36,244 nucleotides of DNA from Bacteroidia bacterium (GCA_025059915.1 JANXDD010000005.1:1-36244), one strand, 5' to 3'; shown: positions 6,812 through 31,958, counted from the first letter of the stretch. The notes: generated by a model from the letters alone, not told the origin. A program made the numbers and translations.

Positions 6812-7328
6812 TGGTAGTCGTCGTAGTGCGCGGCTCCTCTCCAACAAAGTCTGTTACTCGCTCTTCACTGCGCCTTAGGAGGCTGCCATCCCGTTCCAAT
6901 AGAGCTTGAGCTTGACTTACTCTATTCGGAAAAACCTGCTGATAGGCACACAGGAGGGTATCTAACAGATTGCAAGTGCTATCTGTCAAAAGGGCATAGA
7001 AGAGGGTGCCGTCGGGAGACATTAGCTCTATGAACCAGAGCTCTCGGGCCTCTGGTCCTTTCCAGCGACCAATGGGAGCATACACGCCCACAGGTAGCAC
7101 CTGCTTTTTGAGCCATTCTTGCACCTCTGGAGAAAATGGATCCATGGACCGTCCTGAGGGAATTTGCACAGGAGGGACTACGGGAGGAAGTCCATTTCTC
7201 AGCTCCTCACAGACAGAGGGACTACCGAGATTAAGAGGAGGGGCTTCTTCTGTCGGCGTAGAAGAAGGAGTAGGACTACAAGAACTTAGAAGGCATAAGA
7301 GCCCTGCCCATACATACCTGTAGGTCAT
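6759..7328 (-). CDS. Putative lipoprotein, unknown function
   Basis: N-terminus MTYRYVWAGLLCLLSSCSP with lipobox (LSSC). Start supported by TAAGTTTG-N4-ATG. Confidence 0.7.
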   Translation of the reverse strand: MTYRYVWAGLLCLLSSCSPTPSSTPTEEAPPLNLGSPSVCEELRNGLPPVVPPVQIPSGRSMDPFSPEVQEWLKKQVLPVGVYAPIGRWKGPEARELWFIELMSPDGTLFYALLTDSTCNLLDTLLCAYQQVFPNRVSQAQALLERDGSLLRRSEERVTDFVGEEPRTTTTTSESRYQVDWAAGKLRRL

Positions 7329-7332
7329 GATA

Positions 7333-7340
7333 CAAACTTA
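7333..7340 (-). promoter_or_regulatory. -7 box TAAGTTTG, 4 nt before ATG of the lipoprotein gene
   Basis: Minus strand reads TAAGTTTG-TATC-ATG. Confidence 0.75.
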
Positions 7341-7365
7341 CGGGCTTTTTATGAGAATAGATGCG

Positions 7366-7373
7366 TAATATTG
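7366..7373 (+). promoter_or_regulatory. Putative -7 box TAATATTG (one mismatch), 6 nt before glmS ATG
   Basis: TAATATTG-CAAGCA-ATGTGCGGT. Confidence 0.45.
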
Positions 7374-7379
7374 CAAGCA

Positions 7380-9230
7380 ATGTGCGGTATCGTAGCTTAT
7401 ACGGGTTTCCGCAGCGCAGCGCCTCTCTTGATAGAGGGCCTTCGCCGGCTGGAATACCGGGGATACGATTCTGCTGGGCTCGTTACTCTCTCTAATGGTC
7501 AGTTCTGGCTTCGCAAGCAGGCAGGAAAAGTCTCAGCTTTGGCTCGTGTAACCGATGAGCGCTCAGTTCCCGGTACGGTTGGCATTGCTCATACTCGCTG
7601 GGCTACCCACGGCGCTCCCACCGATACCAACGCTCATCCCCATGTCAGCTATGATGAAAATCTCGTGCTGGTGCATAATGGCATCATAGAAAATCATGCT
7701 GCTCTGCGTGCGCGTTTAGAGCGGGAGGGCATAAGCTTTGTGAGCGAGACAGATACAGAGGTTTTAGCGCACTGGCTGGCGTGGATACGTCAGCAATATC
7801 CGACTGAGAGTTGGTCAGAGGTAATAAAGCGGGCTTTCGCTCACGTAGAGGGAACCTTTGGCATAGCTATTTTGGTCAAACAGGCCCCCGGGCTTGTGAT
7901 TTTGGTGAGGCGATTCAGTCCTCTCTTGATAGGATTAGGAAAGGGTGAATATATCGCTGCTTCGGATGCCACGGCTATTATCCCTTATACGCGGGAGGTG
8001 ATTCATTTGGAAGAGGATGAGGCTGCTCTTTTGCACCCAGACTTTTCGGAGCCAGAAATTTTCAGCCTGAAGGATAAGATACGCATTCCTCAGAGAGAGT
8101 ATATAGAGTGGGATGTAGCGGCGATTGAGCGGGGGGGCTATCCTCACTTTATGCTCAAAGAGATATTTGAGCAGCCTCAGGCTTTGCGTGAATGCATGCG
8201 GGGTCGGATTCGTCAAGAGCCTTTAGAGGTGCGGCTGGGAGGAATCAGTAGCGTAATGGACAAGCTCCTCTCTGCTTCTCGTCTCACTCTCGTGGGATGC
8301 GGAACCAGCTGGCATGCTGCCTTAGTTGGGGAATATCTGATAGAGCAGTTAGCTCGCGTCCCTGTGGAAGTTGAATATGCTTCAGAGTTTCGTTACAGGG
8401 ACCCCGTTATTTTGCCAGGCGATGTTGTTATAGGTATAAGTCAAAGTGGGGAAACCGCTGATACTTTGGCTGCCCTTCGCATGGCAAAAGCCCGAAATGC
8501 CCTCATTTTAGGCATCACGAACGTAGTAGGTTCCAGCATTCCACGTGAAACCCACGCAGGGATATACATTCATGCAGGTCCTGAGATAGGGGTGGCTTCT
8601 ACAAAAGCTTTTACGGCTCAGCTTACAGCGCTTACGCTTTTTGCCCTACATCTGGGAGCTGCTCGGTATGTCATAGACCGCAGCCTTCATGACCTTTTGA
8701 TAGAAACGCTTCTTGGGCTGCCTGACTTGGTAGCGCAGACCTTAGAACGGCTAAATGAGCCTGCCTTACACGTTGCTGAGCAGCTTGTCTCTGCGACAAA
8801 TGTGTTCTACCTGGGGCGGGGATATAACTTCCCAGTGGCTTTAGAGGGTGCTCTCAAGCTTAAGGAGATTGCCTACATTCATGCGGAGGGCTATCCTGCT
8901 GCTGAGATGAAACACGGCCCCATAGCGCTGATTGACAAAGGAATGCCAGTGGTAGTAATTGCTCTGCGGGACAGCCTTTATGAAAAGGTGCTGGGAAATA
9001 TCCAAGAGGTACGCGCCCGAGGGGCAAAAGTCATAGCTATTGCCACAGAGGGGGATGAACACATTCGTTCGTATGCGGAGGAGGTTCTGTACGTGCCAAA
9101 AGTACCTGAGCCTCTATCTCCAATTTTGGCCGTACTTCCGCTCCAGCTTTTAGCCTACCATACAGCGGTCTTACGCGGATGCGATGTAGACCAACCGCGC
9201 AATCTGGCTAAGTCAGTAACAGTAGAGTAA
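7380..9230 (+). CDS. glmS: Glutamine--fructose-6-phosphate aminotransferase (isomerizing)
   Basis: MCGIVAYTGFR with catalytic Cys2, RRLEYRGYDSAG, HTRWATHG, SIS motifs (CGTSWHAALV, ISQSGETADTLAAL), C-terminal DQPRNLAKSVTVE. Mature start is ATG 7380, not the TTG at 7371. Confidence 0.97.
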   Translation: MCGIVAYTGFRSAAPLLIEGLRRLEYRGYDSAGLVTLSNGQFWLRKQAGKVSALARVTDERSVPGTVGIAHTRWATHGAPTDTNAHPHVSYDENLVLVHNGIIENHAALRARLEREGISFVSETDTEVLAHWLAWIRQQYPTESWSEVIKRAFAHVEGTFGIAILVKQAPGLVILVRRFSPLLIGLGKGEYIAASDATAIIPYTREVIHLEEDEAALLHPDFSEPEIFSLKDKIRIPQREYIEWDVAAIERGGYPHFMLKEIFEQPQALRECMRGRIRQEPLEVRLGGISSVMDKLLSASRLTLVGCGTSWHAALVGEYLIEQLARVPVEVEYASEFRYRDPVILPGDVVIGISQSGETADTLAALRMAKARNALILGITNVVGSSIPRETHAGIYIHAGPEIGVASTKAFTAQLTALTLFALHLGAARYVIDRSLHDLLIETLLGLPDLVAQTLERLNEPALHVAEQLVSATNVFYLGRGYNFPVALEGALKLKEIAYIHAEGYPAAEMKHGPIALIDKGMPVVVIALRDSLYEKVLGNIQEVRARGAKVIAIATEGDEHIRSYAEEVLYVPKVPEPLSPILAVLPLQLLAYHTAVLRGCDVDQPRNLAKSVTVE

Positions 9231-9237
9231 GCTCCTA

Positions 9238-10746
9238 ATGCCCGCATGGCGATATCCCTTCGTGTGGGCAGCAGCGGGCATGATTTTGGGGATTCTCCTT
9301 GCTGAGATTTCAGGGAAGGGAGCTTTGCTCATATGGGGTGGAATAGTAGGGGGAAGTGCCTATGCGTGGTTTAGATTGCAGTGGGGGCGGCTAGTGTGGA
9401 GCTTGCCTCTTTTCGCTTTTCTGGGATGGGTGCGGGCATGGGTGGAAAAACTTCCTCCTCCTAATGCTCTTTCTACTTTCACGGGACATCTGGTTCGGCT
9501 CTCTGGGTATGTAATAGAAGAGCCTTTTCGCACAAAAAGGGCTTATCGGCTTCTTTTGCGGGTAGATTCAGTTTATCTATATCGCTTGAGGCAGCTCTTT
9601 CCTACAGAAGGTCGGCTTCTTCTGTATGTGAGAGACAGTAGCGTAATGACCATTCCTGTCGGGACCCGCATTTATGCTTCCTGCCGGCTGGATAGCATTC
9701 GCTTCGGGGCAGATTATTGGGCACGACAAAAAGTTTTTGTAAGTGCATTTTCAGAAGAGGTGGAGAAAGGAAAGATAGAACCCCTTTACCTCTTCGGTTA
9801 CTTTCAGCGGCTGCGGCAAGCTATAATAGCCAAGATGGAATCCACCTCTCCTCTCTCAGGGGCCCCTCTGGCTGTGGCACAAGCGCTTCTACTGGGATAC
9901 AAGCGGGGCATAGAACCAGAAGTCCGAGAAACTTTCCAGCTCTCTGGCGCAGCTCATATCCTTGCCGTGTCTGGAATGCATGTAGGGCTTGTTTTGTCTG
10001 TATGGCTTTTTCTTCTTTCTAAGCTGCCGGCGGGGTGGGGAAGGCATTGGGTCAGTCAGAGCCTCCTTCTGGTGGTAGTGGTAATGTATGGCTTTCTTAC
10101 TGGCGCCAGTCCTTCTGCAATGCGAGCCGTGATTATGGGAAGTGTGGCTATCGCAGCGCGCATGCTTCAGCAGCTTTATCTGCCGCTGAATGCCTTAGGC
10201 TTTGCAGCATTTCTCCAGAGTGCAGCCGAACCAAATGTAATATATGAACTGGGATTTCAGCTTTCTTACGCAGCCGTAGGAGGAATCATGGCCTTCTACG
10301 AGCCTATCCGAACTTTTCTCTTGCGCCGCTCAAAGAAAGAAAGCCTCTTTTTCTCCTACCTCAAAGACATTACTGCTGTTTCTCTGGCAGCCCAAGGAGG
10401 AACGCTATTTTTGAGCTGGGCGTACTTTGGGCGCTTTCCTATCTACTTTCTGCTGGCGAACTTGATTGCAGTGCCGCTGGCTACAGCATTAGCTTTTTCA
10501 GCAGTGGCGTGGGTCGGGCTTATGTATGTGCCAGGCGTGGCAGAGATAGTGGGCTATCCTCCTTATGCTTTTGCTTGGCTGCTTGTGAAAAGCGTTCAGC
10601 TTATATCTGCACTGCCCGGGGGAAGTCTTTCCCTTCCTGCTATCCCTCCTTATCTGGGGGTATTCCTGACGCTCATCACGATAGTCGCCGTAGGGGTGTG
10701 GCTCCATCATCGCTTGAAAGAAGCCAAAACGCCTTGGCTCATTTGA
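9238..10746 (+). CDS. comEC: ComEC/Rec2-family competence protein (short form without MBL domain)
   Basis: Polytopic; LSGAAHILAVSGMHVGLV and GASPSAMRAVIMGS are diagnostic of the competence domain. Confidence 0.87.
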   Translation: MPAWRYPFVWAAAGMILGILLAEISGKGALLIWGGIVGGSAYAWFRLQWGRLVWSLPLFAFLGWVRAWVEKLPPPNALSTFTGHLVRLSGYVIEEPFRTKRAYRLLLRVDSVYLYRLRQLFPTEGRLLLYVRDSSVMTIPVGTRIYASCRLDSIRFGADYWARQKVFVSAFSEEVEKGKIEPLYLFGYFQRLRQAIIAKMESTSPLSGAPLAVAQALLLGYKRGIEPEVRETFQLSGAAHILAVSGMHVGLVLSVWLFLLSKLPAGWGRHWVSQSLLLVVVVMYGFLTGASPSAMRAVIMGSVAIAARMLQQLYLPLNALGFAAFLQSAAEPNVIYELGFQLSYAAVGGIMAFYEPIRTFLLRRSKKESLFFSYLKDITAVSLAAQGGTLFLSWAYFGRFPIYFLLANLIAVPLATALAFSAVAWVGLMYVPGVAEIVGYPPYAFAWLLVKSVQLISALPGGSLSLPAIPPYLGVFLTLITIVAVGVWLHHRLKEAKTPWLI

Positions 10747-10767
10747 AGTTTGCTTACTTCGTTGCCC

Positions 10768-11184
10768 ATGTACCGCAATCAAGCCATAGAAATAGATGTA
10801 GATGGCTCTTGGCAAGAAAATGGCTATGTGGGCTACGGACTGGTAGTTCGGCAAGATGGAAAAGAAGTATACCGAGAAGGGGGGCGGGTTCCCTCAAATG
10901 ATCCTGACCTTCAGGCTCATCGGCAGATTGGGGGGGAAATCTATGCTGTTGTGCAAGCGGTGCGCTGGTGCCTCCGCCATAAAGTAAAAGCTTGTACCAT
11001 CTATCATGATTACGAGGGCTTAGCTCGCTGGGCGCGTGGAGAGTGGAAAGCTAAAACTACGCTGACCAAGCGCTACGTGGATTTCCTCCGCCGAGCTGGT
11101 GTGGAGATAGAATGGGTGAAGGTGCCAGCCCATGCGGGGCTGGTATGGAATGAGATAGCGAACAAGTTAGCCATGGGCTCCTGA
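10768..11184 (+). CDS. RNase H type I-like protein (caulimovirus-type/viroplasmin-associated RNase H-like family)
   Basis: IDVDGSW, GGEIYAVVQAV, IYHDYEGLARWARGEWKAK, VKVPAHAGLVWNEIANKLA: RNase HI fold landmarks. Confidence 0.82.
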   Translation: MYRNQAIEIDVDGSWQENGYVGYGLVVRQDGKEVYREGGRVPSNDPDLQAHRQIGGEIYAVVQAVRWCLRHKVKACTIYHDYEGLARWARGEWKAKTTLTKRYVDFLRRAGVEIEWVKVPAHAGLVWNEIANKLAMGS

Positions 11185-11196
11185 GGACTTCCGTTT

Positions 11197-12147
11197 TTAT
11201 ATCCCTAAGCTCTCTATAGCTGCTTCGCAGCGGCTTCGGATTTCTTCTTCTAAATTGTCATAGGCTCTTGGCTGGAAGGTCTCGCCGGTCAGGCGCTGAT
11301 AGACTTCAATGTACCTTTCCCGAGCCTCTTGGATTATGGTAGGAGGGAGGGGAGGAGGGGTGGCATTAGGTTGTCCTTGAAAGCCTTGGCGCATAAGCCA
11401 TTCGCGTACATATTCTTTGGTCAGGTGGATTTGGGGGTCTTGGCGAGCTTGCCTTTCATAGTATCCGTCCAACTTTAAGTACCGAGCACTATCAGGAGTA
11501 TGTACCTCGTCGGCCAGAAGGACTTCTCCATCCCACGTTCCAAATTCATACTTCGCATCGCAGAGGAGCATCCCCCCACGCTCTGCAATCTCTATACCTT
11601 TTTTGAAGAGATAGAAGGCATATTCTCTGATGCGATCCCAGTGGGCTCGGGGCACCAGTCCAGATTCTACTATCTCTCGCTCAGAGATTTCCACATCATG
11701 ACCAATAATGGATTTCGTAGTAGGTGTGAGAATAGGCTCGGGAAGAATATCATTCTCTATAAGTCCGTCGGGCAATCGCACGCCGCTGATTAACCGTCCC
11801 CCAGTCCGATACAAGCGCCACGCATACCCTACTAAGCACCGCCGAATAATCACCTCTACCGGATAAACCTTCACTCGCCGCATCAGAAGCACATTGGGGT
11901 CAGGCGTACTAATCCAAGCAGAGGGCACTTCATTTTGATAAAAGCGGAACATGAAATCCGATATCCCCGTGAGAACTTGCCCTTTATGAGGAATTGTCTC
12001 GGAAAGGATAGTGTCAAACGCCGAGATGCGGTCGGTCGTTACGATCAAAAGGTATTCATGCTCTATCTCGTACACATCGCGTACTTTGCCCCGATAGAAG
12101 CCTGTCTGCTTTGGCAGCTGAAAGTTAGTCTGGTAAAAACCTTGCAT
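11197..12147 (-). CDS. purC: Phosphoribosylaminoimidazole-succinocarboxamide synthase
   Basis: GKVRDVYEIEHEYLLIVTTDRISAFD, IPHKGQVL, EVIIRRCLVGYAWR, LCDAKYEFGTWDGEVLLADEVHTPDSARYL. Confidence 0.96.
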   Translation of the reverse strand: MQGFYQTNFQLPKQTGFYRGKVRDVYEIEHEYLLIVTTDRISAFDTILSETIPHKGQVLTGISDFMFRFYQNEVPSAWISTPDPNVLLMRRVKVYPVEVIIRRCLVGYAWRLYRTGGRLISGVRLPDGLIENDILPEPILTPTTKSIIGHDVEISEREIVESGLVPRAHWDRIREYAFYLFKKGIEIAERGGMLLCDAKYEFGTWDGEVLLADEVHTPDSARYLKLDGYYERQARQDPQIHLTKEYVREWLMRQGFQGQPNATPPPLPPTIIQEARERYIEVYQRLTGETFQPRAYDNLEEEIRSRCEAAIESLGI

Positions 12148-12153
12148 GGCTTT

Positions 12154-12906
12154 TTATGAAGTGGCAGCGTAATGGGCGGCGATTTCCTCTGTCATAGCGA
12201 GGTTGTGATACACCTTTTGAACATCATCGTGTTCCTCCAGCTGCTCTATCAGGCGAAGGGCTTTTTGGGCTTCTTCCCAGCTGAGTTGCACATATGAGCT
12301 GGGAACCCAAGCCAGGGAGGCTTCTTCTGGTTCAATCTTGAGCTTTTCCAGGGCTTCTTGGAGGGCTCCGAAGCTCTCGTAGCTACAAGTTACTACGGCT
12401 GTATCTTCACTGATTTCCACATCTTCTGCGCCTGCTTCTATCATGGCTTCTAAGAAGGTTTCTTCTTGGGGAATTCTTTCGGCGGGGATAGTGAATACTC
12501 CTTTTCGGGAGAAAAGATAAGACACGGCGCCCGAGGTGGCGAGGCTACCCCCTCCGCGGGAAAAAAGCGTCCTAAGCTGAGAAACTGTGCGGTTCGTGTT
12601 ATCGGTCATGGCTTCAATCAGGACAGCTACGCCGCCAGGCGCATAGCCTTCATACATGACTTCTGTGTAGTTTTCTGCGCCAGAGTCGCCTTTGGAAATA
12701 GCGCGTTCAATCACATCCTTAGGCATATTGGCGCGGCGAGCGTTCTGAATAGCCAAACGCAAACGCGGGTTGAAGTCTGGGTTAGGGCCGCCCTCTCGTG
12801 CTGCTACCGTGATTTCTCGCACCAGTCGGGTGAAAAGCGCTCCTCTTTTCGCATCCACTATGGCTTTTTTTCGTTTTATCTGCGCCCATTTACTATGACC
12901 CGCCAT
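12154..12906 (-). CDS. yebC: YebC/PmpR-family (TACO1) regulator/translation factor
   Basis: MAGHSKWAQIKRKKAIVDAKRGALFTRLVREI; MYEGYAPGGVAVLIEAMTDNTNRT. Start refined to ATG 12906 (track: 12921). Confidence 0.96.
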   Translation of the reverse strand: MAGHSKWAQIKRKKAIVDAKRGALFTRLVREITVAAREGGPNPDFNPRLRLAIQNARRANMPKDVIERAISKGDSGAENYTEVMYEGYAPGGVAVLIEAMTDNTNRTVSQLRTLFSRGGGSLATSGAVSYLFSRKGVFTIPAERIPQEETFLEAMIEAGAEDVEISEDTAVVTCSYESFGALQEALEKLKIEPEEASLAWVPSSYVQLSWEEAQKALRLIEQLEEHDDVQKVYHNLAMTEEIAAHYAATS

Positions 12907-12910
12907 ACAA

Positions 12911-12918
12911 CAAAGATA
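12911..12918 (-). promoter_or_regulatory. -7 box TATCTTTG, 4 nt before yebC ATG
   Basis: Minus strand reads TATCTTTG-TTGT-ATGGCGGGT. Confidence 0.8.
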
Positions 12919-12929
12919 CAAAGCCTCTC

Positions 12930-14324
12930 TTAGCGGCTCTTTCTAAGAATATGATAGGCAAATCCACCCACTATTCCCATTCCTGCGGCAGTCATGAAGA
13001 GACGCCATTCCATGCTTTCTGCGCATAGAGGCTCCATGAAGGTTACAGCGAGTGCAGGTAAGGTAGCTCCTGCGATTGTAAGTCCCAGGCGCAGCGCCCC
13101 CCGAAAGCTATACCCCATAGTAAGGGATAAAGCCGTCATGCCTCCATAGGCAAGGAGGGTAGTCCATGCGCTGGCGATGTATCCAAACCTTGGAATGCCA
13201 TATAGATTCCCCATCCAAGTTATCAGACTGCCGACGGCTGTGATGACTATGCCGGGGGTTGGGGTCTTTTTGAGCTTGTACCAAATAGAGGCTTGGATGA
13301 GAGAGCCAGCAAAAAGATTTGCCCATAGAAGGATAGGCACCACTTTGAGCGCTTCATGATAAGCTGTAGGGAAGAGCGGTTTAGGAAGCAGTCCCCCCCA
13401 CTGCGTTGCTAAAAGCGGTTTTGTCCATAGGGTGAGAAAAATCACCCCAATAGAGGCGATGGTGTGATATAAAATCCAGCTTCGGTGGAAAAATGAACTG
13501 TCTCCCCGGTATTCGCCCAGCAGGAGCGGCTCTCCCGCTTGACGATACGCTTGAACAAAAAGCGCCAAAGCCATCGCCGCTTTATATGCAGCTCCATAGA
13601 GAGCAGTTTCTACCAAACTGTACCGAGCCAATAAAATGCGGTCTAATACATCGTTTGTAGCGCCAAGGAGGCCCATGATAGCCAGAGGAACCCCATACTG
13701 CAGAAGTGTGAAAGCTGACGGTGCCTCTGAGGGAGAAGGAGGCGGTCCCCACGCAAGCCCCCATATAAGCCGCAGCGCAGAAGAGAAAAGATTAGCCCCG
13801 AGAATAAACTCCACCCCATAGCCCTGGATACCTACGCCCCATATATTGAGTAAAAGAAAGGTGCCTACATGTCCTATTTGGATTGCGGCAAATCGCAGAG
13901 GCGAGCCTATCGCTCTCTGATGCGCCAAAGTAAAACTGCCCCAAGCATCTACCATCCATATGCTTATAGCCAGCCAGAGAAGGGCTTCTCTCCCCTTATA
14001 CCCTAAGGCTGGAGAAATAAAAGGCACTGCCAGAGCAAGAGGAAAGTTGAGCAGAAGCCCGCTCAGGAGAAGTAGTCGCATCACTCGCCAGAAGGTGCCG
14101 CCTAACTGCTCCTTTCTGCCGAAGCGGAAATACGCTGTCTCCATGCCCAAGCCCGTAGCTATGAGTCCAAAGGCAATCCACGAGTACAATTCAGACAGGC
14201 GCCCGTAGTCTTCTACAGGGAGCCTATGTACATAAAGGGGAGTAAGGAGCCAGTTGAGAAGGCGAGCAGTAGCACTGGTAAGCCCGTAAATCGCTCCATG
14301 ATACAGGAGCCTTCGTAGAGACAC
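12930..14324 (-). CDS. Oligosaccharide flippase / polysaccharide biosynthesis protein (MATE/MOP superfamily)
   Basis: Polytopic protein with N-terminal YGLTSATARLLNWLLTPLYVHRLPVEDYGRLSELYSW typical of Wzx-like flippases. Start refined to GTG 14324 from promoter geometry (track TTG 14330 lies inside the -7 box). Confidence 0.82.
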   Translation of the reverse strand: MSLRRLLYHGAIYGLTSATARLLNWLLTPLYVHRLPVEDYGRLSELYSWIAFGLIATGLGMETAYFRFGRKEQLGGTFWRVMRLLLLSGLLLNFPLALAVPFISPALGYKGREALLWLAISIWMVDAWGSFTLAHQRAIGSPLRFAAIQIGHVGTFLLLNIWGVGIQGYGVEFILGANLFSSALRLIWGLAWGPPPSPSEAPSAFTLLQYGVPLAIMGLLGATNDVLDRILLARYSLVETALYGAAYKAAMALALFVQAYRQAGEPLLLGEYRGDSSFFHRSWILYHTIASIGVIFLTLWTKPLLATQWGGLLPKPLFPTAYHEALKVVPILLWANLFAGSLIQASIWYKLKKTPTPGIVITAVGSLITWMGNLYGIPRFGYIASAWTTLLAYGGMTALSLTMGYSFRGALRLGLTIAGATLPALAVTFMEPLCAESMEWRLFMTAAGMGIVGGFAYHILRKSR

Positions 14325-14327
14325 GCT

Positions 14328-14335
14328 CAAAGGTA
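14328..14335 (-). promoter_or_regulatory. -7 box TACCTTTG, 3 nt before GTG of the flippase
   Basis: Minus strand reads TACCTTTG-AGC-GTGTCTCTACGAAGG. Confidence 0.7.
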
Positions 14336-14503
14336 GGAGACTACAGGGGTACTGTCTCGTATGCTATCGCCAGTTTTTTACCGCACAGCTGATGAGCGTA
14401 CGCAGGGGCTACAGGAAAAGGGCTTCAGGGCTGGTATGAGATTACGACTTCTTATAAGCAATTACCGCTGAGAGTGGCTTTTTGAGGGCTTACGAAAAAG
14501 GTA

Positions 14504-14521
14504 GTAGATAAGCTAAACTAC
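14504..14521. repeat. 18-bp imperfect palindrome GTAGATAAGCTAAACTAC, distal copy upstream of thrS
   Basis: Identical to its reverse complement at 14 of 18 positions. Part of a ~50-bp imperfect direct repeat with 14572-14621. Confidence 0.8.
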
Positions 14522-14571
14522 GTTGAGTACTTCTGTCAGGCTATGCAGCCCTTATGAAGGAAGCAGCTGTG

Positions 14572-14589
14572 GTAGATAAGCTGAACTAC
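14572..14589. repeat. 18-bp imperfect palindrome GTAGATAAGCTGAACTAC, proximal copy upstream of thrS
   Basis: One base different from the distal copy, 68 bp downstream of it, 13 bp upstream of the TAGCTTTG box. Confidence 0.8.
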
Positions 14590-14602
14590 GCTAAGTATCT
14601 TG

Positions 14603-14610
14603 TAGCTTTG
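14603..14610 (+). promoter_or_regulatory. -7 box TAGCTTTG, 8 nt before thrS ATG
   Basis: TAGCTTTG-CAGCCTAT-ATG. Confidence 0.7.
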
Positions 14611-14618
14611 CAGCCTAT

Positions 14619-16535: not shown

Positions 16536-16558
16536 GATAAAAATCGTATTTTGGGGCC

Positions 16559-18019: not shown

Positions 18020-18083
18020 GGGGCTGGACCTACTTCAGCTTATCCAGTGAGAAAGCTTCTGGGCTGAGATTTTTCGGATTTCC

Positions 18084-18110
18084 TTTGAGAAACTTTTTCC
18101 ATTTCTCAAA
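18084..18110. repeat. Perfect 9-bp inverted repeat TTTGAGAAA-N9-TTTCTCAAA
   Basis: Read directly from sequence, ~65 bp after the acyl-CoA dehydrogenase stop. Confidence 0.75.
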
Positions 18111-18147
18111 AGCTCTCTCTTCTGAGCTATGCCTGCTCAAAGGAAAG

Positions 18148-18175
18148 AGAGGGTGATAGCCCTCTGTACAGGGCT
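18148..18175 (+). other. Two mutually exclusive nested hairpins: AGAGGG-TGATAG-CCCTCT and AGCCCT-CTGTAC-AGGGCT
   Basis: 18148-18165 and 18158-18175 share the AGCCCTCT segment, so only one can form at a time. Confidence 0.55.
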
Positions 18176-18383
18176 TTCTATGCGGAGGCTACAAACCTCC
18201 TGAAAGGTGGGTCTGATTAGAGCTGAGGAGCTCTCTGGCTAAGGCTGAGGGGGAAAAGCAGGGCTCTAAAAAAACTTACGTATTCCGAGGAGGGGAGCCA
18301 TTCGTCAAAAAATGAGTGCAGTAGCAAGCGCTTCTTTTGCTTTCAGCGCCATGGTCAGAAGCTGTGGGGAAAGCGGAGCCCTA

Positions 18384-25600: not shown

Positions 25601-26847
25601 AGGTAAAATACTACAGAGTCACGTGAGCGGGCCCCTGGATGTCGCAGTACTCGGGCATATACTTCATTAGCGTTGTTGTCAGGGTTTTGACCGCTGACGG
25701 CGATACCTGGGTTGAAAAGCCGCCCTCCACGAGAAGGAAGATTTTCTCCTAAATCCACTAATCCCACGGCATTGCGGGTGTTCTGCGCAACTGCATTGGC
25801 TCGGTTAGTAACCCATACCTCTATACGAGTGATATTGATGGGAGAGCTAACTACAGGGAGGGTGGAAAGGGATTGCTCATATAAAGAGCGGAAGAAGTGG
25901 TTGAGAAAAAAATGCCGGTTGAAATCGTAGTCGCTGGCTTTTTTGACGCGCTCTTGGCGCTGACCTCCTGCTCGGACGACAACCTCTTGACTTTTGCTGC
26001 GCTGCTGAGATGCCAACGCCGTAACGAAAACAGAGCCAAATTGCATTCTTGTTTTGATGCCCCACAGGTTTTGTCCTCCTGTGATGAGAGTGCCACCCAA
26101 AGGAAGCCCCACATTCCCTGCTTCTATGCTCTTGATAATGTCATCCTCGTAGCCTTGGTACTCTATTTTGAACTGATTCTCAAAGCTAAAGCCTGTCTGA
26201 GTGTCCCAGTTAAGGCGGAGCTTGAGTTTTTCGCCGATGTTGCCTATAACATTGAGCTGGATTTGCTGATTGAAGGCGAGGTTAGTATTGCGCTGCTGGC
26301 GGATAGTGAGAGCTGGATTGCGCATGCGATTGCTGCGCAGAGACAAGTCCAGTAGGACATTGATATTGGGGCGAATATCCACCCGCCCGCTTCCAAAAAT
26401 ATCTCTGAAAAGCTCGCTATTGATGTTTATAGGGGGGACGAGGCCGGAGAGGGACTGTGTAGTGGGGGTGGTACCTGGACGATTTGAAGTGGAGCTAAGC
26501 TGGGCCTCGCGGCTGCGGCGCTCTAAATACTGGCGAGTGAAGCGCCTGGCCTGGATTTTTTCATACTCCTCCCGACTGATGTAGGAAGGCGGGCGAATAG
26601 TCTTACCTCCTATGCGCTCATACACCCAATACCCTTTTCCATCAGGTGTAAGTTCATACACCACCTCATAATTGCTTGGGGGAGGTAACATCCATGGAGG
26701 GGACGGAATGTATCGCCCTGTTACATCAGCGGGCGAATCGCGAAATCTGGTACGAACGGTGTCTCCTGGCTGAGCTTTTAGCCATTCTACGACACCGAAC
26801 GCGTATAAGATTAAAACTCTACTCTTTAGGGAGAGCCGAAGCGGCAC
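19627..26847 (-). CDS. sprA: Cell surface/gliding protein SprA, T9SS outer-membrane translocon
   Basis: 2406 aa. Conserved N-terminal block (GRVDIRPNINVLLDLSLRSNRMRNPALTIRQQRNTNLAFNQQIQLNVIGNIGEKLKLRLNWDTQTGFSFENQFKIEYQGYEDDIIKSIEAGNVGLPLGG..LITGGQNLWGIKTRMQFG); size matches the SprA family. Confidence 0.96.
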   Translation of the reverse strand: MPLRLSLKSRVLILYAFGVVEWLKAQPGDTVRTRFRDSPADVTGRYIPSPPWMLPPPSNYEVVYELTPDGKGYWVYERIGGKTIRPPSYISREEYEKIQARRFTRQYLERRSREAQLSSTSNRPGTTPTTQSLSGLVPPININSELFRDIFGSGRVDIRPNINVLLDLSLRSNRMRNPALTIRQQRNTNLAFNQQIQLNVIGNIGEKLKLRLNWDTQTGFSFENQFKIEYQGYEDDIIKSIEAGNVGLPLGGTLITGGQNLWGIKTRMQFGSVFVTALASQQRSKSQEVVVRAGGQRQERVKKASDYDFNRHFFLNHFFRSLYEQSLSTLPVVSSPINITRIEVWVTNRANAVAQNTRNAVGLVDLGENLPSRGGRLFNPGIAVSGQNPDNNANEVYARVLRHPGARSRDSVVFYLSQEGLVNGQDFELVENMRRLNENEYFVHRQLGYISLNISLQPNDAVFVAYEYTLAGDNTVYRVGEFSIDQPADPQNSNVLFLKMLKPQAIRPTLNNQPYPTWDLMMKNVYRLDAFNIRPEGFDLQIVYEATDGSGDILYLPSADTREKPLLQVVGLDRLRNNMEAGPDNVFDFIPQVTVFPDRGIIVFPVLEPFGRHLVRQFVTDPVNDSIKYAYDPLYRLTQVDAVQYYPQLNRFKLKYSFLASTGAEINLNTPQIQPGSIRVTAGGAPLTEGVDYQVDYTIGKVTILNQGILQSGQEIRVRFESNVLFGIDQKTLVGGRVEWRPSQRFQLGATGLSFYERPLINKVIISEEPAANIMWGIDANLQERSRFLSALLNSLPFYSTKEESEITFKGEFAQLRPGIPRQVVTGGERGIAYIDDFEGLRNVLDLTQWTQWKLASTPPSLRPSDPNPLSANFTRAALSWYFIDPEFYNRPSTFGLNDQSPALNSHYTRRVEPAEIFPNRTIAAGSNILTTFDLYYRPQERGPYNYNANPNALNPDGTFRNPQTNWAGIMRRVIGNTDFEAANYEFIEFWLMDPFLDNPSAQGGDLYFNLGQMSEDVLPDNRRAYEHGLPTRAEDDAANLNLTLTPWGRVPNIQIPTLAFDNDPNARQFQDVGLDGLRSEAERNFFSSYLSQLQNVLSPEAYQQVLNDPSSDDYAHFRDISSPSILERYKRFSGLEGNSPIPRPNEPFTRQASALPDVEDINLDGTLNTQEAFYSYRVSLRPQDLVVGRNYIVDKRELEVKLPNGSTVTTRWYLFRIPLSAGTPVGGIQNFKAIDFIRMYLTNFDREVVLRFGKLELVSTMWRRALINLNQRDETLLPDPAGDPTKFETGTMNIEENGSRQPFPYVLPPNILRQPIPGSPIAGLLQNEQSLVMRVCNLADGDGRGVFRTFNYDLRFYERLRLWAHAEPLVGSPIPPNVSQLGDVTLFIRIGTDYSDNYYEYEVPLQLSQPGNLSVENIWANNIDIRLEDLNFVKVLRDEARQRQNFPINQVFTYTLPNGSRISVKGTPQLNNVKTILIGIRNPDDGRGPICVEVWVNELRVTNYNTRPGWSTSGVLNVRLADLGNLSVSGSMSTPWFGSIEQKVGQRSTEWQQRYTLTGGLQLHRLLPQKAGLEIPAFFTYGESFTRPLYSPYDPDVLTRTRLEAQSNLSQRDSLERILTSYSRTYSYTFAGVRKTYVNPQAKKRFWHLQNFLFSYGYNETYTRNPQTEYLFNRQYTGSIAYNYNFQSKPFKPFGKLKPALLRDFSISYLPAQVGWRVEGNRQYQEQKLRPIGGGPQVRPTFYQNFLLNRQYVLQWNLTPSLNLNYNATVQARVDEPEGPINTPEKRDSLWNNFLSFGKDPARGKFHRINFGRTLNFQQNITATYRLPLNKIKWTDWINSSVTYTADYRWMTAALGQERFGNTISNSRNIQVTGQFQLSSLYKKVKFIDKLLTPPPKRNIFSQADTSRKQGDDPYIAARQIGRVIGKIIFGIQNVDVTYSRQQGTTLPGFLPRPANFGLDWDYTDSVTGVRSQAPGWGFILGEQPDLQGGWLQTNARKGWFTRDPRFTLPFQQTRSTQLNVRAGITPVKDLRIDLTLTRNESFTRGGLFGWDTLQQDFAFSNPSAQGSFSMSFLGARLLALGQRDRSYERLEGEYRYIFSTRLRLSNPFYESVLGPNAVLTRRDYWNGYTGSQQDVLTLAFLSAYGPYNPNRMSLSPFPSIPLPNWNVSYTGLSQIPFFKERFRTVTLNHAYRGTYTASYVLNLRAADRNRDGFSESIQPIQSPLDTLPGLTVYNFEPVFVINAVSIQESFSPLVGFNIAWKNGMNTTIELRRSRTTTLNVGALQLNQNKNTEFSFTWNWRRESFLQPFSLFGRTFELKNSATFRIEITYRSLINQNRQIDNPIFTQPIGGTRSFTIKPAVDYSISTQLTVRAYIEHTRNRPVLSNSFPTSFTAVGVQFRFSLTN

Positions 26848-26888
26848 AAATAAAAATAGCCGCTACGAAGTTATAGAAGGAGCGCTAT

Positions 26889-27044
26889 TTAGTACACGTG
26901 ATTGTCCACTCGGGTCGCTGGGCAAGAACCGCTTCGCATCCACACTGACCGCCCACCCGCTCGTCCAGAGGCACAGGCTTCCAGAAGAATGGCTACCGCC
27001 ATGAATGTAAGTACAACTAAACTTGTTTTACGGATTTTGCGCAT
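26889..27044 (-). CDS. Small (51 aa) putative lipoprotein
   Basis: MRKIRKTSLVVLTFMAVAILLEACASGRAGGRSVWMRSGSCPATRVDNHVY*; lipobox-like LLEAC. Start refined from 27122 to 27044 using TATATTTG-N4-ATG. Confidence 0.7.
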   Translation of the reverse strand: MRKIRKTSLVVLTFMAVAILLEACASGRAGGRSVWMRSGSCPATRVDNHVY

Positions 27045-27198
27045 ACAGCAAATATACGCTCTCTTCACGATATGAGTTGCAAGGGCAAGGAGTTCGTACC
27101 TTATGGCGTTTGCGATGGGCACTGGAGAGAGAACATCCCGCTATCAAAAAGGCCAAAATGCCCCCGAGAACTAACCTATACTTCCTCCAGGCTATCAC
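27028..27198 (-). CDS. Small (56 aa) putative lipoprotein, not in the supplied ORF track
   Basis: GTG start: MIAWRKYRLVLGGILAFLIAGCSLSSAHRKRHKVRTPCPCNSYREESVYLLYAQNP*. Signal peptide with lipobox LIAGC, preceded by TACCTTTG-N4-GTG. Confidence 0.7.
   Translation of the reverse strand: MIAWRKYRLVLGGILAFLIAGCSLSSAHRKRHKVRTPCPCNSYREESVYLLYAQNP
27049..27056 (-). promoter_or_regulatory. -7 box TATATTTG, 4 nt before ATG of the 51-aa lipoprotein
   Basis: Minus strand reads TATATTTG-CTGT-ATGCGCAAA; lies inside the upstream small lipoprotein ORF. Confidence 0.75.
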
Positions 27199-27202
27199 CA
27201 TG

Positions 27203-27210
27203 CAAAGGTA
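27203..27210 (-). promoter_or_regulatory. -7 box TACCTTTG, 4 nt before GTG of the 56-aa lipoprotein
   Basis: Minus strand reads TACCTTTG-CATG-GTGATAGCC. Confidence 0.75.
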
Positions 27211-27300
27211 TTCACTTTGCAGGATTTGAAAAAGGGGGTATTAGGTCCATTCCCACATTTTGACCAGAGTAAGGGAGCTTTTTTGATGCTGGCTATTTTG

Positions 27301-27308
27301 TAACTTTG
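27301..27308 (+). promoter_or_regulatory. -7 box TAACTTTG, 4 nt before GTG at 27313
   Basis: TAACTTTG-TAGC-GTGAGGGGG. Confidence 0.8.
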
Positions 27309-27312
27309 TAGC

Positions 27313-27870
27313 GTGAGGGGGTATCATCTCGGCAAATTCGTTTTGGGGGGCCTTCTTCTGGTTATATCGTGTAAGCGGGAGAAGAAGGACGCAACAGAGG
27401 ACATCGGACATGCTCCTGTGACGACGATAGAGGTTTGGCTTATCAAGGGTGCAGATACGATTAGAGGGCGCTATAAGGATCCAGATGGCCCGGGGGGGCG
27501 GCCTCCTGCGATTGATACCCTTCGTCCGCGAGCAAACGAAACTTACACTTATGTCTTACGCATTCTGGATGAGAGCGGTAATCCTACGAAGGATCTTACG
27601 GAGCTTATATTCTCCCAGCAGAAAAATACTCATCGTATGTTCTTCTTTCCTACTCCAGAGGAGTTAGTGACTATACAGATAGGGGATACAGATGATTTCG
27701 GGCGTCCCGTCGGGGGGCGAGGCACTTGGCGTCAAGGAATTGATACAATCAGAGAGGGAATCGTCCGATTTCTTCTGCGGCATTACCTAAATCCGGCCGA
27801 TAAAGATTTCGGGCTGGAGCGTGGTAGTACAGATTTAGATGTCAGGCTTCCCATAAGAATCCAAAACTAA
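27313..27870 (+). CDS. Putative lipoprotein, unknown function
   Basis: MRGYHLGKFVLGGLLLVISCKREKKD with lipobox; leaderless promoter geometry supports the start. Confidence 0.7.
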   Translation: MRGYHLGKFVLGGLLLVISCKREKKDATEDIGHAPVTTIEVWLIKGADTIRGRYKDPDGPGGRPPAIDTLRPRANETYTYVLRILDESGNPTKDLTELIFSQQKNTHRMFFFPTPEELVTIQIGDTDDFGRPVGGRGTWRQGIDTIREGIVRFLLRHYLNPADKDFGLERGSTDLDVRLPIRIQN

Positions 27871-27880
27871 ACGATAGTGT

Positions 27881-28255
27881 ATGAGGCTTAAACTGAAGAA
27901 GCGCCTGCATGCGGAGGGATTGCGTTGCACGCATCCTCGCCGGTGTATTCTGGAGGCTTTGGAAAAGGGACCTAAAACCCATGCTGAGCTTCTCCGAGAT
28001 ACCCAGCTGGATAGAGTAACTATCTACCGCAATCTTATCGCGCTTCAGAGGACGGGGCTCGTGTATAAGGTGTACTTGCCAGGGCACGAGCCTGTGTATG
28101 TGCTTTGCGAGAGTGAAGGTCCTACACACGCCCATTTTTTCTGTCAGAAATGTCGTAAGGGTATATGCCTTCCCCCTAATATTGTGCAGATAGCGGAGCC
28201 ATGGGCTTCTCGCACGGAAAGAGTTTTTCTACTGGGCAGCTGCTCGGAGTGCTAA
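27881..28255 (+). CDS. Fur-family transcriptional regulator
   Basis: LRCTHPRRCILEALEKGPKTHAELLRD..LDRVTIYRNLIALQRTGLVYKV winged helix; THAHFFCQKC and terminal CSEC metal/zinc motifs. Confidence 0.88.
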   Translation: MRLKLKKRLHAEGLRCTHPRRCILEALEKGPKTHAELLRDTQLDRVTIYRNLIALQRTGLVYKVYLPGHEPVYVLCESEGPTHAHFFCQKCRKGICLPPNIVQIAEPWASRTERVFLLGSCSEC

Positions 28256-29533
28256 AAGGGCTTCCCCTACGAGATAGACGCTCCCGGTAACCAGGATGGT
28301 TTGACATTCTTGGGAAGCGGCTGCTAAGGCATCTGCGACACTTCTGAAGGCCCTTCCTTTATAGCCAAGGTGGGAGGCTATTTCGGCGAGATGGGGGGCG
28401 GGGAGTGCCCGTGGATTGTCAGCTTGGGTGAAATAAACTGGCCCTTGCCAACCGCCAAAGGCGTGGAGAGCTCCTTCTATGTCCTTGTCTGAAGAAAAGC
28501 CTATCACGAGCCCTTCTATGGTCTGAGGGGCATTTCGCACGAGGCGGCGCAGAGCTGCAAAGCCAGGGGGGTTATGCGCCACATCCAAAAGATAGGTGTG
28601 AGTCTCGGAGCGAATCCACTGCCCCCGCCCATATAGAGGAGCTAAGCGCCCTGCCGAAGCGATGCCCTCCTTTATCGCCTCTTCATCCACTGACCATCCT
28701 AAATCCCTAAGACGCTCTATAGCTGTTATAGCAGTGGCGATATTGACAGCTTGATAGTCCCCTGTAAGATCGCAGAGATGAGAGGTACTTGTCATTTCCT
28801 CCGTAAATACCCGGTAGTAAGTCTGCGGTCCCTCCATCCAAGCCGCAGGAGATAAACGGCGATGTACTTCTGTAAGGGGTGCGTTTTGGTTATGAGCCAC
28901 TTCCCTGAATACCTCATACACTTCAGGATGCTCTTGCTGAGCTACTACAACTGGACGCTCTGGTTTGATAATCCCTGCTTTTTCTCGGGCAATATGAGTG
29001 AGGGTGGGTCCTAACACTTCTACGTGGTCCCAGCCAATAGGAGTTATCACAGCGAGCAGGGGAGTAACTATATTCGTAGCATCCCATCTCCCCCCTAATC
29101 CTACCTCTACGACAGCCACATCCACCTTGGCATCTGCGAAATACGCTAAGCTCATTCCTACGGTAGCTTCAAAGAAGCTGAGCTGGAGCTCTTCTATCGC
29201 AGCCCTCCAGCGAGAAAGAAATTCATCTACCCATTCTGCTGGTGGCTCTTCTCCATTGACACGCATGCGTTCTGTGAAGCGCCACAGGTGGGGTGATGTA
29301 TGAAGCCCTACCCGATATCCTGCAGCGCGGAGGATGGAGGCTATCAAAGCAGAAGTAGAACCTTTTCCATTTGTACCAGCGATGTGGATGATAGGATAGC
29401 GGCGGTGCGGCGCTCCTAAGACCTCATCCCATCGTTTCATGAAGGCTAAAGTGGGATGAAGGGCTTTTCTCCCAGTTTGTTCATAAACTTTCAGGCGAGA
29501 GTACAGCCAGGCTTGCCACTCTGCGATGGACAC
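28229..29533 (-). CDS. folC: Bifunctional folylpolyglutamate synthase/dihydrofolate synthase
   Basis: HIAGTNGKGSTSALIASILRAAGYRVGLHTSPHL, VVEVGLGGRWDATNIV, VAHNPPG. Confidence 0.95.
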   Translation of the reverse strand: MSIAEWQAWLYSRLKVYEQTGRKALHPTLAFMKRWDEVLGAPHRRYPIIHIAGTNGKGSTSALIASILRAAGYRVGLHTSPHLWRFTERMRVNGEEPPAEWVDEFLSRWRAAIEELQLSFFEATVGMSLAYFADAKVDVAVVEVGLGGRWDATNIVTPLLAVITPIGWDHVEVLGPTLTHIAREKAGIIKPERPVVVAQQEHPEVYEVFREVAHNQNAPLTEVHRRLSPAAWMEGPQTYYRVFTEEMTSTSHLCDLTGDYQAVNIATAITAIERLRDLGWSVDEEAIKEGIASAGRLAPLYGRGQWIRSETHTYLLDVAHNPPGFAALRRLVRNAPQTIEGLVIGFSSDKDIEGALHAFGGWQGPVYFTQADNPRALPAPHLAEIASHLGYKGRAFRSVADALAAASQECQTILVTGSVYLVGEALLALRAAAQ

Positions 29534-29537
29534 GAGG

Positions 29538-29545
29538 CGAAGGTA
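29538..29545 (-). promoter_or_regulatory. -7 box variant TACCTTCG, 4 nt before folC GTG
   Basis: Minus strand reads TACCTTCG-CCTC-GTGTCCATC. Confidence 0.6.
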
Positions 29546-29564
29546 AGGTGTGAAGGATTTGGGC

Positions 29565-29572
29565 TACTTTTG
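29565..29572 (+). promoter_or_regulatory. -7 box TACTTTTG, 4 nt before ATG at 29577
   Basis: TACTTTTG-TGAG-ATGAACCTT. Confidence 0.8.
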
Positions 29573-29576
29573 TGAG

Positions 29577-31268
29577 ATGAACCTTTATCTGAGCGATGTT
29601 CGGCGGCTTACTCTCTGGAATCGTCATGAGGCTCGTTTGCGAGAGGCTTTAGAAGCATGGCGTCGCCGAACCTACTGGTATGCTTTCCCTGAGGATCCAA
29701 AGGAGTATGGAGAAGAAGCAGCTGCTGAAGGTGAAGCTGCTTTTCGCTCTCAGTTGAATAAGCCTTTTGATAGGCTTAGGCAGTCTGCGCGCCGCTGGCT
29801 TTTGTCGGATGAGGTTTCACCCTACACCCGAGAGCCTTTGGGCATTTCTTACCCTCAAATGGAAGTTGCAGAGGCTCTCTTTCATGCGCAGGAAGCTTTG
29901 TCTCAGTGGCGATGGGTGCCGTACACTGAGCGGCTCGGTCTGCTGATGGAGTCTATTCAGCGCTTTTCTAAGCACTTTTTTGAGGTAGCGCATGCCACTA
30001 TGCACACGACGGGTCAGGCATGGATGATGGCATTTCAGGCATCTGGTCCTCATGCAGCAGACCGAGCAGTAGAGGCGCTGGCTGTAGCCTATGGGGAGCT
30101 TAGTCAGATTCCCTCGCAGGTTCAGTGGGTGCGAGATTTCGGAAAAGCTCAAGCAGTAGTTGAGAAATACTTCATTCCTCAGCCCGAGGGTATTTCGCTT
30201 CATATCGGCGTTTCTACTTTTCCCGTGTGGAATGTTCTGCCAGGATTATACGCCAGTCTGGCGGTCGGCAGTCCCGTCCTAATGAAGCCCCATCCCCGAG
30301 CTATTTATCCGATAGCGGTAGTAGTTTCTATCCTGCAGGAACTTTTTGAGGAGTATGGGCTTTCCCCTGCTATTGTACAGCTTCTTCCTGATACAGTTGC
30401 AGAGCCTATTACGAAAACCCTCGCTGAACATCCCCTCGTTCGCATCATAGACTATACGGGAGGCACAGAATTTGGGAACTACTTGGAAGGCCTGCCAGGG
30501 AAGGTAACCTTTTTAGAAAAAGCTGGCGTGAATGGGGTTTTGATAGAAAGTGTGGAAGATATGGAGGCTGTGGCTAAAAACCTTGCATTTTCCGCCAGCT
30601 TATACAGCGGTCAAATGTGCACCGCCCCTCAGAATGTATATATTCCTCGGGAAGGTGTTCGGACGCCACAGGGTGTGCTTTCCTACGAGGAAGTGAAAGC
30701 GATTCTTACAAAGGCGGTGGATGACCTCTCTTCTCATCCGAAGGCGGCACCGGCGATTCTGGGGGCTCTGCAGAATGATGCTGTCTCGGAGCGGATTGAG
30801 AAACTTGCAAGTACAGCGGCGGCAGTTCATCGGGCTCCGCAGGCGTACGCCCATCCGCAATACAAGGCTGCTCGCACTCTCACCCCCATCGTCGCTGAAG
30901 TAGCTTCTCCCGAAGATAAGGCAGCTCACACAGAGCATTTCGGTCCTCGTTTGCTTTTTATTCCCGTGGAGAGCCCACAGCGCGGCTTAGAGACCCTTTA
31001 TCAGCTTGCTCGGGAGAAGGGCATGCTCTCCTGTGCGATTTATACCACGGATTCAGACTTCAAGCAAAAAGCGATTCGCTTGCTCGCAGAAGCAGCGGTG
31101 CCCTTGAGCTTCAACTTCCGCGGACAGGTTTTTATCAATCAAAGTGTAGCCTTCTCGGACTTCCATGGTACTGGGGGGAATCCCGCAGGAAATGCATCTT
31201 TCACAGATGCCAGCTTTATTGTGAAGCGATTTCGTTGGATTGGAGTGCGGGACTGCCTACAGGCATGA
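29577..31268 (+). CDS. paaN: Aldehyde dehydrogenase-family protein resembling phenylacetic acid degradation protein PaaN
   Basis: DEVSPYTREPLGISYP, ALDH core (VLMKPHPRAIYPIAVVVS, VTFLEKAGVNGVLIE, SGQMCTAPQNVYIPREGV, DFHGTGGNPAGNASFTDASFIVKRF). Start refined from 29550. Confidence 0.8.
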   Translation: MNLYLSDVRRLTLWNRHEARLREALEAWRRRTYWYAFPEDPKEYGEEAAAEGEAAFRSQLNKPFDRLRQSARRWLLSDEVSPYTREPLGISYPQMEVAEALFHAQEALSQWRWVPYTERLGLLMESIQRFSKHFFEVAHATMHTTGQAWMMAFQASGPHAADRAVEALAVAYGELSQIPSQVQWVRDFGKAQAVVEKYFIPQPEGISLHIGVSTFPVWNVLPGLYASLAVGSPVLMKPHPRAIYPIAVVVSILQELFEEYGLSPAIVQLLPDTVAEPITKTLAEHPLVRIIDYTGGTEFGNYLEGLPGKVTFLEKAGVNGVLIESVEDMEAVAKNLAFSASLYSGQMCTAPQNVYIPREGVRTPQGVLSYEEVKAILTKAVDDLSSHPKAAPAILGALQNDAVSERIEKLASTAAAVHRAPQAYAHPQYKAARTLTPIVAEVASPEDKAAHTEHFGPRLLFIPVESPQRGLETLYQLAREKGMLSCAIYTTDSDFKQKAIRLLAEAAVPLSFNFRGQVFINQSVAFSDFHGTGGNPAGNASFTDASFIVKRFRWIGVRDCLQA

Positions 31269-31295
31269 GGGAAAGATAAAATGCGTTCCTTTTGG

Positions 31296-31303
31296 TATCT
31301 TTG
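31296..31303 (+). promoter_or_regulatory. -7 box TATCTTTG, 4 nt before GTG at 31308
   Basis: TATCTTTG-AGAA-GTGAGGCTC. Confidence 0.8.
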
Positions 31304-31307
31304 AGAA

Positions 31308-31958
31308 GTGAGGCTCATAATGCTTGGGCTTGGGGCGCTTTTGTGGGCACAGGAGCGCCCCCTGGTAAAGATTGGGAAGCTCCAATACGGGGGAGGGGGA
31401 GACTGGTATGGCAATCGCGCCTCGCTCTCTAACCTGCTAAAGTACGTCCAGCAGCATGCCCCTATTCCTGTCCAACTGCAAGAGGAAGTTGTTCGTCCAG
31501 CTGCACCTAACCTACATGAGTTTTCGCTTCTCTACGCTTCTGGCCATGGGAATATAGAGTTTTCACCCGAGGAAGTTGAGAATCTGAGAAAGTACCTTCT
31601 GCGGGGCGGCTTTCTCCTCATAGATGACGACTATGGCATGCATGAGTATGCCAAACGAGCACTTTTACAGATTCTACCCGAGGGGCAGTTTCAGCTTATC
31701 CCAGACAATCATCCGATTTTTCACTGCTACTACGACTTTCCGTATGGACTTCCCAAGGTTCATGAGCATGATAATAAAGCACCGCAGCTATATGGATTGT
31801 TTTATCAAGGGCGGCTGGTGGCAGCTCTTACCTATGAAGCGGACTTAGGGGATGGCTGGGAAGACCCGCAGGTGCATAAGGACCCTCCAGAAGTTAGAGA
31901 GCTGGCTTTTCGCATGGGCGTCAATATCTTATGCTACGTGCTGACACATGCATGGTGA
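31308..31958 (+). CDS. DUF4159-family secreted protein
   Basis: Signal (MRLIMLGLGALLWAQ), then KIGKLQYGGGGDWYGNRASLSNLLKYV and LRKYLLRGGFLLIDDDYG, the DUF4159 pattern. Confidence 0.8.
   Translation: MRLIMLGLGALLWAQERPLVKIGKLQYGGGGDWYGNRASLSNLLKYVQQHAPIPVQLQEEVVRPAAPNLHEFSLLYASGHGNIEFSPEEVENLRKYLLRGGFLLIDDDYGMHEYAKRALLQILPEGQFQLIPDNHPIFHCYYDFPYGLPKVHEHDNKAPQLYGLFYQGRLVAALTYEADLGDGWEDPQVHKDPPEVRELAFRMGVNILCYVLTHAW

Follow-up and report, generated by a model that had tools for sequence, protein, structure and literature searches.

Promoter boxes abutting start codons in one family of Bacteroidota predict leaderless or near-leaderless transcription as its main mode

Introduction

Why should seven genes in one short stretch of a Bacteroidia genome carry the same promoter-like box, TAnnTTTG, exactly four bases before the start codon? 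Bacteroidota are known from textbooks for their lack of Shine-Dalgarno sequences, and the start of their genes has usually been explained by A-rich leaders, not by leaderless mRNA. A sequence-only reading of the window (the whole stretch of DNA analysed, 36,244 nucleotides of GCA_025059915.1, JANXDD010000005.1) had proposed that these boxes set transcription starts at or within about a base of the start codon, and that the lineage may use this arrangement as its main mode. Our analysis makes it very probable that, in one family, start codons are fused to the housekeeping sigma-A promoter, which gives leaders of 0–4 nt as the main mode, although no transcription start has been mapped.

In those Bacteroidota whose transcripts have been mapped to date, only a minority are leaderless or nearly so. 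In Bacteroides thetaiotaomicron, 3.7% of 5' UTRs are shorter than 10 nt and the mode is 23 nt (PMC7366714); in Flavobacterium johnsoniae, 87% of leaders are longer than 10 nt and 13% are 10 nt or less (PMC6847099); and in F. psychrophilum 5.5% are leaderless (PMC9723704). The survey of Zheng (2011), which could see Pribnow-like boxes only, reported leaderless genes at averages of 19.2% in Actinobacteria and 39.4% in Deinococcus-Thermus, and in 1 of 37 Bacteroidetes/Chlorobi genomes, at 2.4% (PMC3160421). Two later sequence surveys suggested leaderless mRNA in some Bacteroidetes from nucleotide bias or loss of the anti-Shine-Dalgarno sequence (PMC5397173, PMC10783764); within a search limited to open-licence literature, no mention in them of the family or of the box module described here was found.

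Boxes and gene starts in the window

All seven perfect boxes lie where the sequence-only reading had placed them, each four bases 5' of the named start codon. They are listed with the genes concerned and the less regular cases, and the number of bases between box and start codon is written N4 and so on.

6759-7328, minus strand: gene for a 189-aa lipoprotein-like protein, with box TAAGTTTG at its ATG
7333..7340, minus strand: TAAGTTTG -7 box, N4 to ATG 7328
7366..7373, plus strand: TAATATTG box, 5/6 fixed bases, N6 to ATG 7380 of glmS (TIGR01135)
12154..12906, minus strand: yebC, aligned to NF001030 from residue 1; the N-terminus MAGHSKW fixes the start
12911..12918, minus strand: TATCTTTG -7 box, N4 to ATG 12906 (yebC)
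12930-14324, minus strand: flippase-like ORF, 464 aa (flippase being the label of the sequence-only reading)
14328..14335, minus strand: TACCTTTG -7 box, N3 to GTG 14324 of the flippase-like ORF
14603..14610, plus strand: TAGCTTTG -7 box, N8 to ATG 14619 of thrS (TIGR00418)
26889..27044, minus strand: small lipoprotein gene, 51 aa; homologues in 10/12 family genomes, this one counted
27028..27198, minus strand: small lipoprotein gene, 56 aa, GTG start; in 9/12 family genomes, this one counted
27049..27056, minus strand: TATATTTG -7 box, N4 to ATG 27044
27203..27210, minus strand: TACCTTTG -7 box, N4 to GTG 27198
27301..27308, plus strand: TAACTTTG -7 box, N4 to GTG 27313
27313-27870, plus strand: gene for a 185-aa lipoprotein-like protein, GTG start after TAACTTTG
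29538..29545, minus strand: TACCTTCG box, 5/6 fixed bases, N4 to GTG 29533 of folC (TIGR01499)
29565..29572, plus strand: TACTTTTG -7 box, N4 to ATG 29577
29577..31268, plus strand: aldehyde dehydrogenase family gene (PF00171)
31296..31303, plus strand: TATCTTTG -7 box, N4 to GTG 31308
31308..31958, plus strand: DUF4159 protein gene, GTG start, box TATCTTTG at N4

The irregular cases also proved broadly as described: folC has its one-mismatch box at N4, the flippase-like ORF a spacing of three bases, and thrS and glmS spacings of eight and six, the latter measured to the true glmS start, ATG 7380. Searches found no Pfam family for the 189-aa protein and no match in Pfam or NCBIfam for the 464-aa ORF. 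With 25 boxes against 17 expected, the whole window is only slightly enriched, and what is unusual is the position of the boxes, not their number. Seven matches at one offset among about 30 starts have a chance of about 1e-18 at the window's own box density, a figure that does not yet allow for the choice of offset and starts.

A sharp offset across the genome

The source genome is a 2.04-Mb draft, from which a sample of 434 kb (21%; 51% GC in the sample) was analysed gene by gene. Counted over both strands of the full draft, TAnnTTTG-N4-ATG has 174 occurrences and the reversed pattern 10. The sample contains 325 boxes; at N4 they are followed by 48 ATG and 18 GTG codons (66 together), and at most other offsets by about 6 ATG and 4 GTG (about 10 together), while the offset histogram of the sample has no peak for TTG, CTG or ATH. 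When ORFs of at least 80 aa with ATG or GTG starts are counted, 53 lie at N4, 15, 11 and 10 at N5, N6 and N7, and 2–5 at offsets beyond. Histograms of like shape, with relatively more at N5, were obtained for a complete sister genome (G005) and for a second genus (G011).

The distance histogram that the sequence-only reading had called for, built here from the 21% sample and the whole-genome pattern count, thus peaks sharply at N4 and falls off over N5–N7 as a shoulder; absence of an N4 peak, which would have refuted that reading, was looked for and did not occur. Among divergently transcribed genes, a perfect N4 box was observed before 21/92 in the source genome and 34/104 in G005, against 0.0 and 0.2 for permuted boxes. 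A chance origin of the N4 boxes is excluded by the reversed pattern, the permuted boxes and the offset histogram. The start codons at N4 are 87 ATG, 29 GTG and 3 TTG; this preference for ATG and GTG over TTG is as expected if the first base doubles as the +1 purine.

The box as a probable sigma-A promoter element

The character of the box was examined in 248 aligned examples. Its six fixed bases were the selection criterion, but the free positions -10 and -9 were unselected, and G occurs there in only 9% and 6%. AT-rich stretches lie upstream at -20..-17 and -28..-26, with A+T of 0.65–0.69 at -19/-18 and 0.60–0.61 at -28/-27. These features are like those of sigma-A (sigma-ABfr) promoters of Bacteroides and Flavobacterium, which share the box TAnnTTTG (TAHHTTTG), avoid G at -10/-9, are likewise AT-rich near -18 and -28, and have little or no -33 element. 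No TTG spacing was enriched among the aligned boxes, in agreement with the earlier remark that no -33 TTG is consistently visible; as this element is also not evident in F. johnsoniae, it is not a strict requirement for Bacteroidota sigma-A.

Mapped promoters of F. johnsoniae have the -7 element at -12 to -5, with transcription beginning 4 or 5 nt beyond it (PMC6847099). By this measure, boxes at N4 or N5 place the start on the start codon, and those at N6–N8 leave 1–4 nt. The location of transcription starts in the present family is therefore inferred from start-site mapping in Flavobacterium. The difference lies in what follows the box: leaders in the mapped Bacteroides and Flavobacterium are mostly long, whereas consensus boxes in this family are mostly at N3–8.

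How many genes carry the module

Genes were predicted with a simple, self-written gene finder that uses a hexamer coding score and no motif information. First genes, which probably require a promoter of their own, were defined as those with a divergent neighbour or separated by more than 80 nt from an upstream co-directional gene. A box was called near if perfect and at N3–8, and leadered if perfect and at N9–112, the latter counted only in the absence of a near box. The samples cover 21% of the source genome and 26% of G005; those of the comparators are much smaller.

Near boxes precede 52/126 first genes in the source genome and 76/168 in G005, and leadered boxes 15/126 and 20/168. In G190, a Flavobacteriaceae-like control, the proportions are reversed (3/96 near, 40/96 leadered; Fisher 9e-14 for near:leadered against the source genome). 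Nine permuted boxes gave means of 1.4 and 1.9 near and 3.8 and 3.6 leadered in the source genome and G005, respectively, and once these are subtracted, the near class makes up about 82% of the recognisable consensus promoters. The near count rises a little when any in-frame start close to the predicted one is allowed (1.4 genes in the permuted-box control). Of all genes in the samples whose neighbour is known, 82/312 (26%) in the source genome and 131/433 (30%) in G005 have a near perfect box, values that are probably lower bounds since imperfect boxes were left out of the count. They can be set beside the averages of 19.2% and 39.4% for Actinobacteria and Deinococcus-Thermus (PMC3160421).

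A preference for the heads of operons is also observed. Near boxes precede 52/126 first genes but 18/150 operon-internal genes in the source genome (p 3e-8), and 76/168 but 29/196 in G005 (p 2e-10), so that the odds are about five times higher before first genes.

Three observations qualify the picture. Near boxes are still present before 12–15% of operon-internal genes, and 59% of first genes in the source genome lack a perfect box at N3–8, both of which count against a leaderless promoter reading; some of these first genes have a box with five of the six fixed bases, and others possibly carry a leader or depend on other sigma factors. In addition, N4 accounts for only about half of the near boxes, the others being at N3 or N5–N8, and many leaders may consequently be 1–4 nt rather than zero. 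The claim that transcription begins at or within about one base of the codon is supported by the N4 peak, subject to this qualification. The claim of a main mode for the lineage gains from the near:leadered ratios (52:15 and 76:20 against 3:40 in G190) and from restriction to one family, and is limited by the fact that most first genes remain undetermined.

Leaderless transcripts might exist and yet form a minor fraction of expression, with stronger promoters further upstream at most genes. Promoter strength is not given by sequence alone, and the many first genes without a perfect near box leave room for this. We consider it unlikely all the same, as divergent gaps offer little space for extra promoters (median 65–68 nt, 178 nt in G190) and as leadered perfect boxes, counted where a near one is absent, stand before just 15/126 and 20/168 first genes. 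The short divergent gaps fit promoters that need no leader.

Conservation of box and spacing

Box and spacing are observed to persist in orthologous promoters while the flanks diverge, as in the 51-aa lipoprotein gene, yebC, alaS, rpsU and infC. Before yebC, a perfect box stands at N4 both in the window and in five named relatives, while a sixth named relative has it at N5; in more distant Bacteroidales the yebC box is at about N22, and in KatS3mg041 at about N39. For alaS, the N4 box is present in both the source genome and G005 (compared as reciprocal best hits between the samples), and a perfect box precedes the G005 orthologue of the aldehyde dehydrogenase gene, at N5. Many other reciprocal-best-hit orthologues keep the box, often with a spacing that is off by a few bases, and some orthologues of the two genomes are without it.

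Among genomes with a recognised start, a perfect box stands at N4–N6 before rpsU in 9/10, and at N7–N8 before infC, which starts with GTG, in 4/5. Gene-specific spacings are held across species in rpsU (mostly N6) and infC, and the exact leader length may thus be set gene by gene.

It could be objected that the N4 start codons are mis-chosen and that the real starts lie downstream, behind ordinary short leaders. Starts are easily mispredicted in draft genomes, and some genes offer several in-frame candidates. The ATG of yebC, however, opens the MAGHSKW N-terminus conserved across phyla, the starts of alaS, rpsU and infC are likewise fixed by conserved N-termini, and in most cases the start chosen by coding score is the one adjoining the box, which played no part in the choice. 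Since several box-linked starts are fixed by protein homology, mis-calling is excluded as the cause of the pattern, and the objection is left with hardly any credibility.

In most family genomes, homologues of the 51- and 56-aa lipoprotein genes are immediate neighbours. Dismissal of the two ORFs, at 27044(-) and 27198(-), as spurious was dropped in view of this family-wide conservation. The 51-aa gene has a perfect box at exactly N4 before an ATG in 10/10 family genomes that have the gene, despite variation among genomes in the free box bases, the four-base spacer and much of the signal peptide; for the 56-aa gene, three further relatives have a perfect box at N3–4. The pair (26889-27198, minus strand) sits directly upstream of the sprA gene. 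The C-terminus of the 51-aa protein is conserved (SGSCPATRVDNH-like), and the 56-aa protein carries a RKRKKVRTPCPC-like sequence. A Pfam search found no family for either.

Translation initiation

A gene whose box is at N4 has no room for a Shine-Dalgarno sequence between box and start. Operon-internal genes show no enrichment either, with a Shine-Dalgarno motif before 13/150 against 27/150 for the antisense motif. No clear A-rich upstream pattern was found at their predicted starts, where start errors blur the signal; such a pattern is present in G190, which is much richer in A+T overall. F. johnsoniae, with its Kozak-like A-rich leaders, is likewise an example of non-Shine-Dalgarno initiation in Bacteroidota. 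Overlaps of 4 nt make up 17% of co-directional pairs and 1% in G190, which suggests, by inference, translational coupling.

Genes for bS21, IF3 and a bS1-like protein were each found in most family genomes. Loss of bS21, IF3 or bS1 was rejected as a marker, as none is lost family-wide. No 16S gene was recovered from 13 genomes, one of them a single contig; the sole exact match to GGATCACCTCCTT and the inspected short-pattern matches were without 16S context.

Given that Bacteroidota lack Shine-Dalgarno sequences and use other upstream signals, the box might itself be a signal for translation, acting in the mRNA as a U-rich site for bS1 or the ribosome, with transcription starting further upstream; the presence of bS21 and a bS1-like protein would accommodate this. 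Such a signal should serve operon-internal genes too, which also need translation, but the box is about 5-fold rarer by odds before them. The known sigma-A element has the same six bases and likewise avoids G at -10/-9, the AT-rich positions near -18 and -27 repeat the helical phasing of mapped promoters, and outgroup yebC orthologues carry the same box some 22–39 nt upstream. A ribosome-binding site in place of a promoter was rejected on operon context and promoter-like flanks, and very little likelihood remains for this explanation.

Distribution across Bacteroidota

The trait is observed in one family. Excess N4-ATG sites number 70–104 per Mb in all 12 family genomes, and about 45 at most in the roughly 320 others from the class and phylum (G031 43, G028 39, the rest below 28). 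A phylum-wide trait is ruled out, as these other genomes reach at most about half the excess per Mb. Members recognised by matching N4 counts are SKW77, SKYG57, KatS3mg026, SKYB116, SKYG92 and RSWP8, all metagenome-assembled genomes; from the isolate names, we take the family's habitat to be hot springs. KatS3mg041 shows no N4-ATG enrichment. One RSWP8 record, JAPYWM010000135.1, is titled Sphingobacterium sp.; it belongs to the family by N4-site counts and yebC identity, and the title is probably a mislabelling.

In G012, the sole genome that represents the sister family, the N4 peak is absent; the excess is at N5–N8, with a second group near N20, and it is possible that this genome represents an intermediate state. 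A genome from another family of the class (G028; 43% GC, 2.3 Mb) has a smaller N4 peak, with 10 ORF starts among 94 boxes, and near and leadered boxes are equally frequent at its first genes (11/72 each); it is possibly a second, partial leaderless case. Despite its high N4-ATG count, G031 has no clear N4 peak among ORF starts in a 160-kb sample. In group f50 of another class (for example G180, G172 and G149), N4-ATG is about 6–7 fold over control, with few boxes overall.

A predicted mode of expression and its implications

The preferred reading, that of a sigma-A promoter fused to the start codon, would work as follows. The -7 element TAHHTTTG would span -12 to -5 relative to the transcription start, and RNA polymerase would begin on the purine of the ATG or GTG, 4 or 5 bases past the box, yielding a leaderless mRNA, while spacings of N6–N8 would yield leaders of 1–4 nt. 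Most predictable mRNAs should consequently begin at the start codon or within about four bases of it, although no 5' end has been mapped. The ribosome would then start on the 5'-terminal AUG or GUG without Shine-Dalgarno contact. Operon-internal genes, which cannot be leaderless, would probably be reached largely by coupling to the gene upstream. This mode of ribosome start is inferred from general knowledge.

A more far-reaching version would make the promoter-start codon unit the main gene-start signal, have first genes of operons begin leaderless on a 5'-terminal AUG or GUG and internal ones by termination-reinitiation, leave almost no leader-dependent initiation, and place the sister family in between. 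We put this forward tentatively, as somewhat more likely to be wrong than right.

Leaderless genes of mycobacteria, other Actinobacteria and Deinococcus-Thermus likewise have a fixed short promoter distance, both ATG and GTG starts and no Shine-Dalgarno sequence. They differ in belonging to other phyla and in using a TATAAT-like -10 element; TAnnTTTG ends closer to the start.

Large-scale leaderless expression would gain a separate example in a family whose recognisable promoters mostly adjoin the start codon. With lineages in the usual and in an apparently intermediate state among its relatives, the family would offer a clean comparative system for the evolution of such expression. In practice, box, four bases and start codon provide a gene-start rule for family genomes, in which gene finders that assume an upstream ribosome site would be expected to misplace some starts and to overlook small genes.
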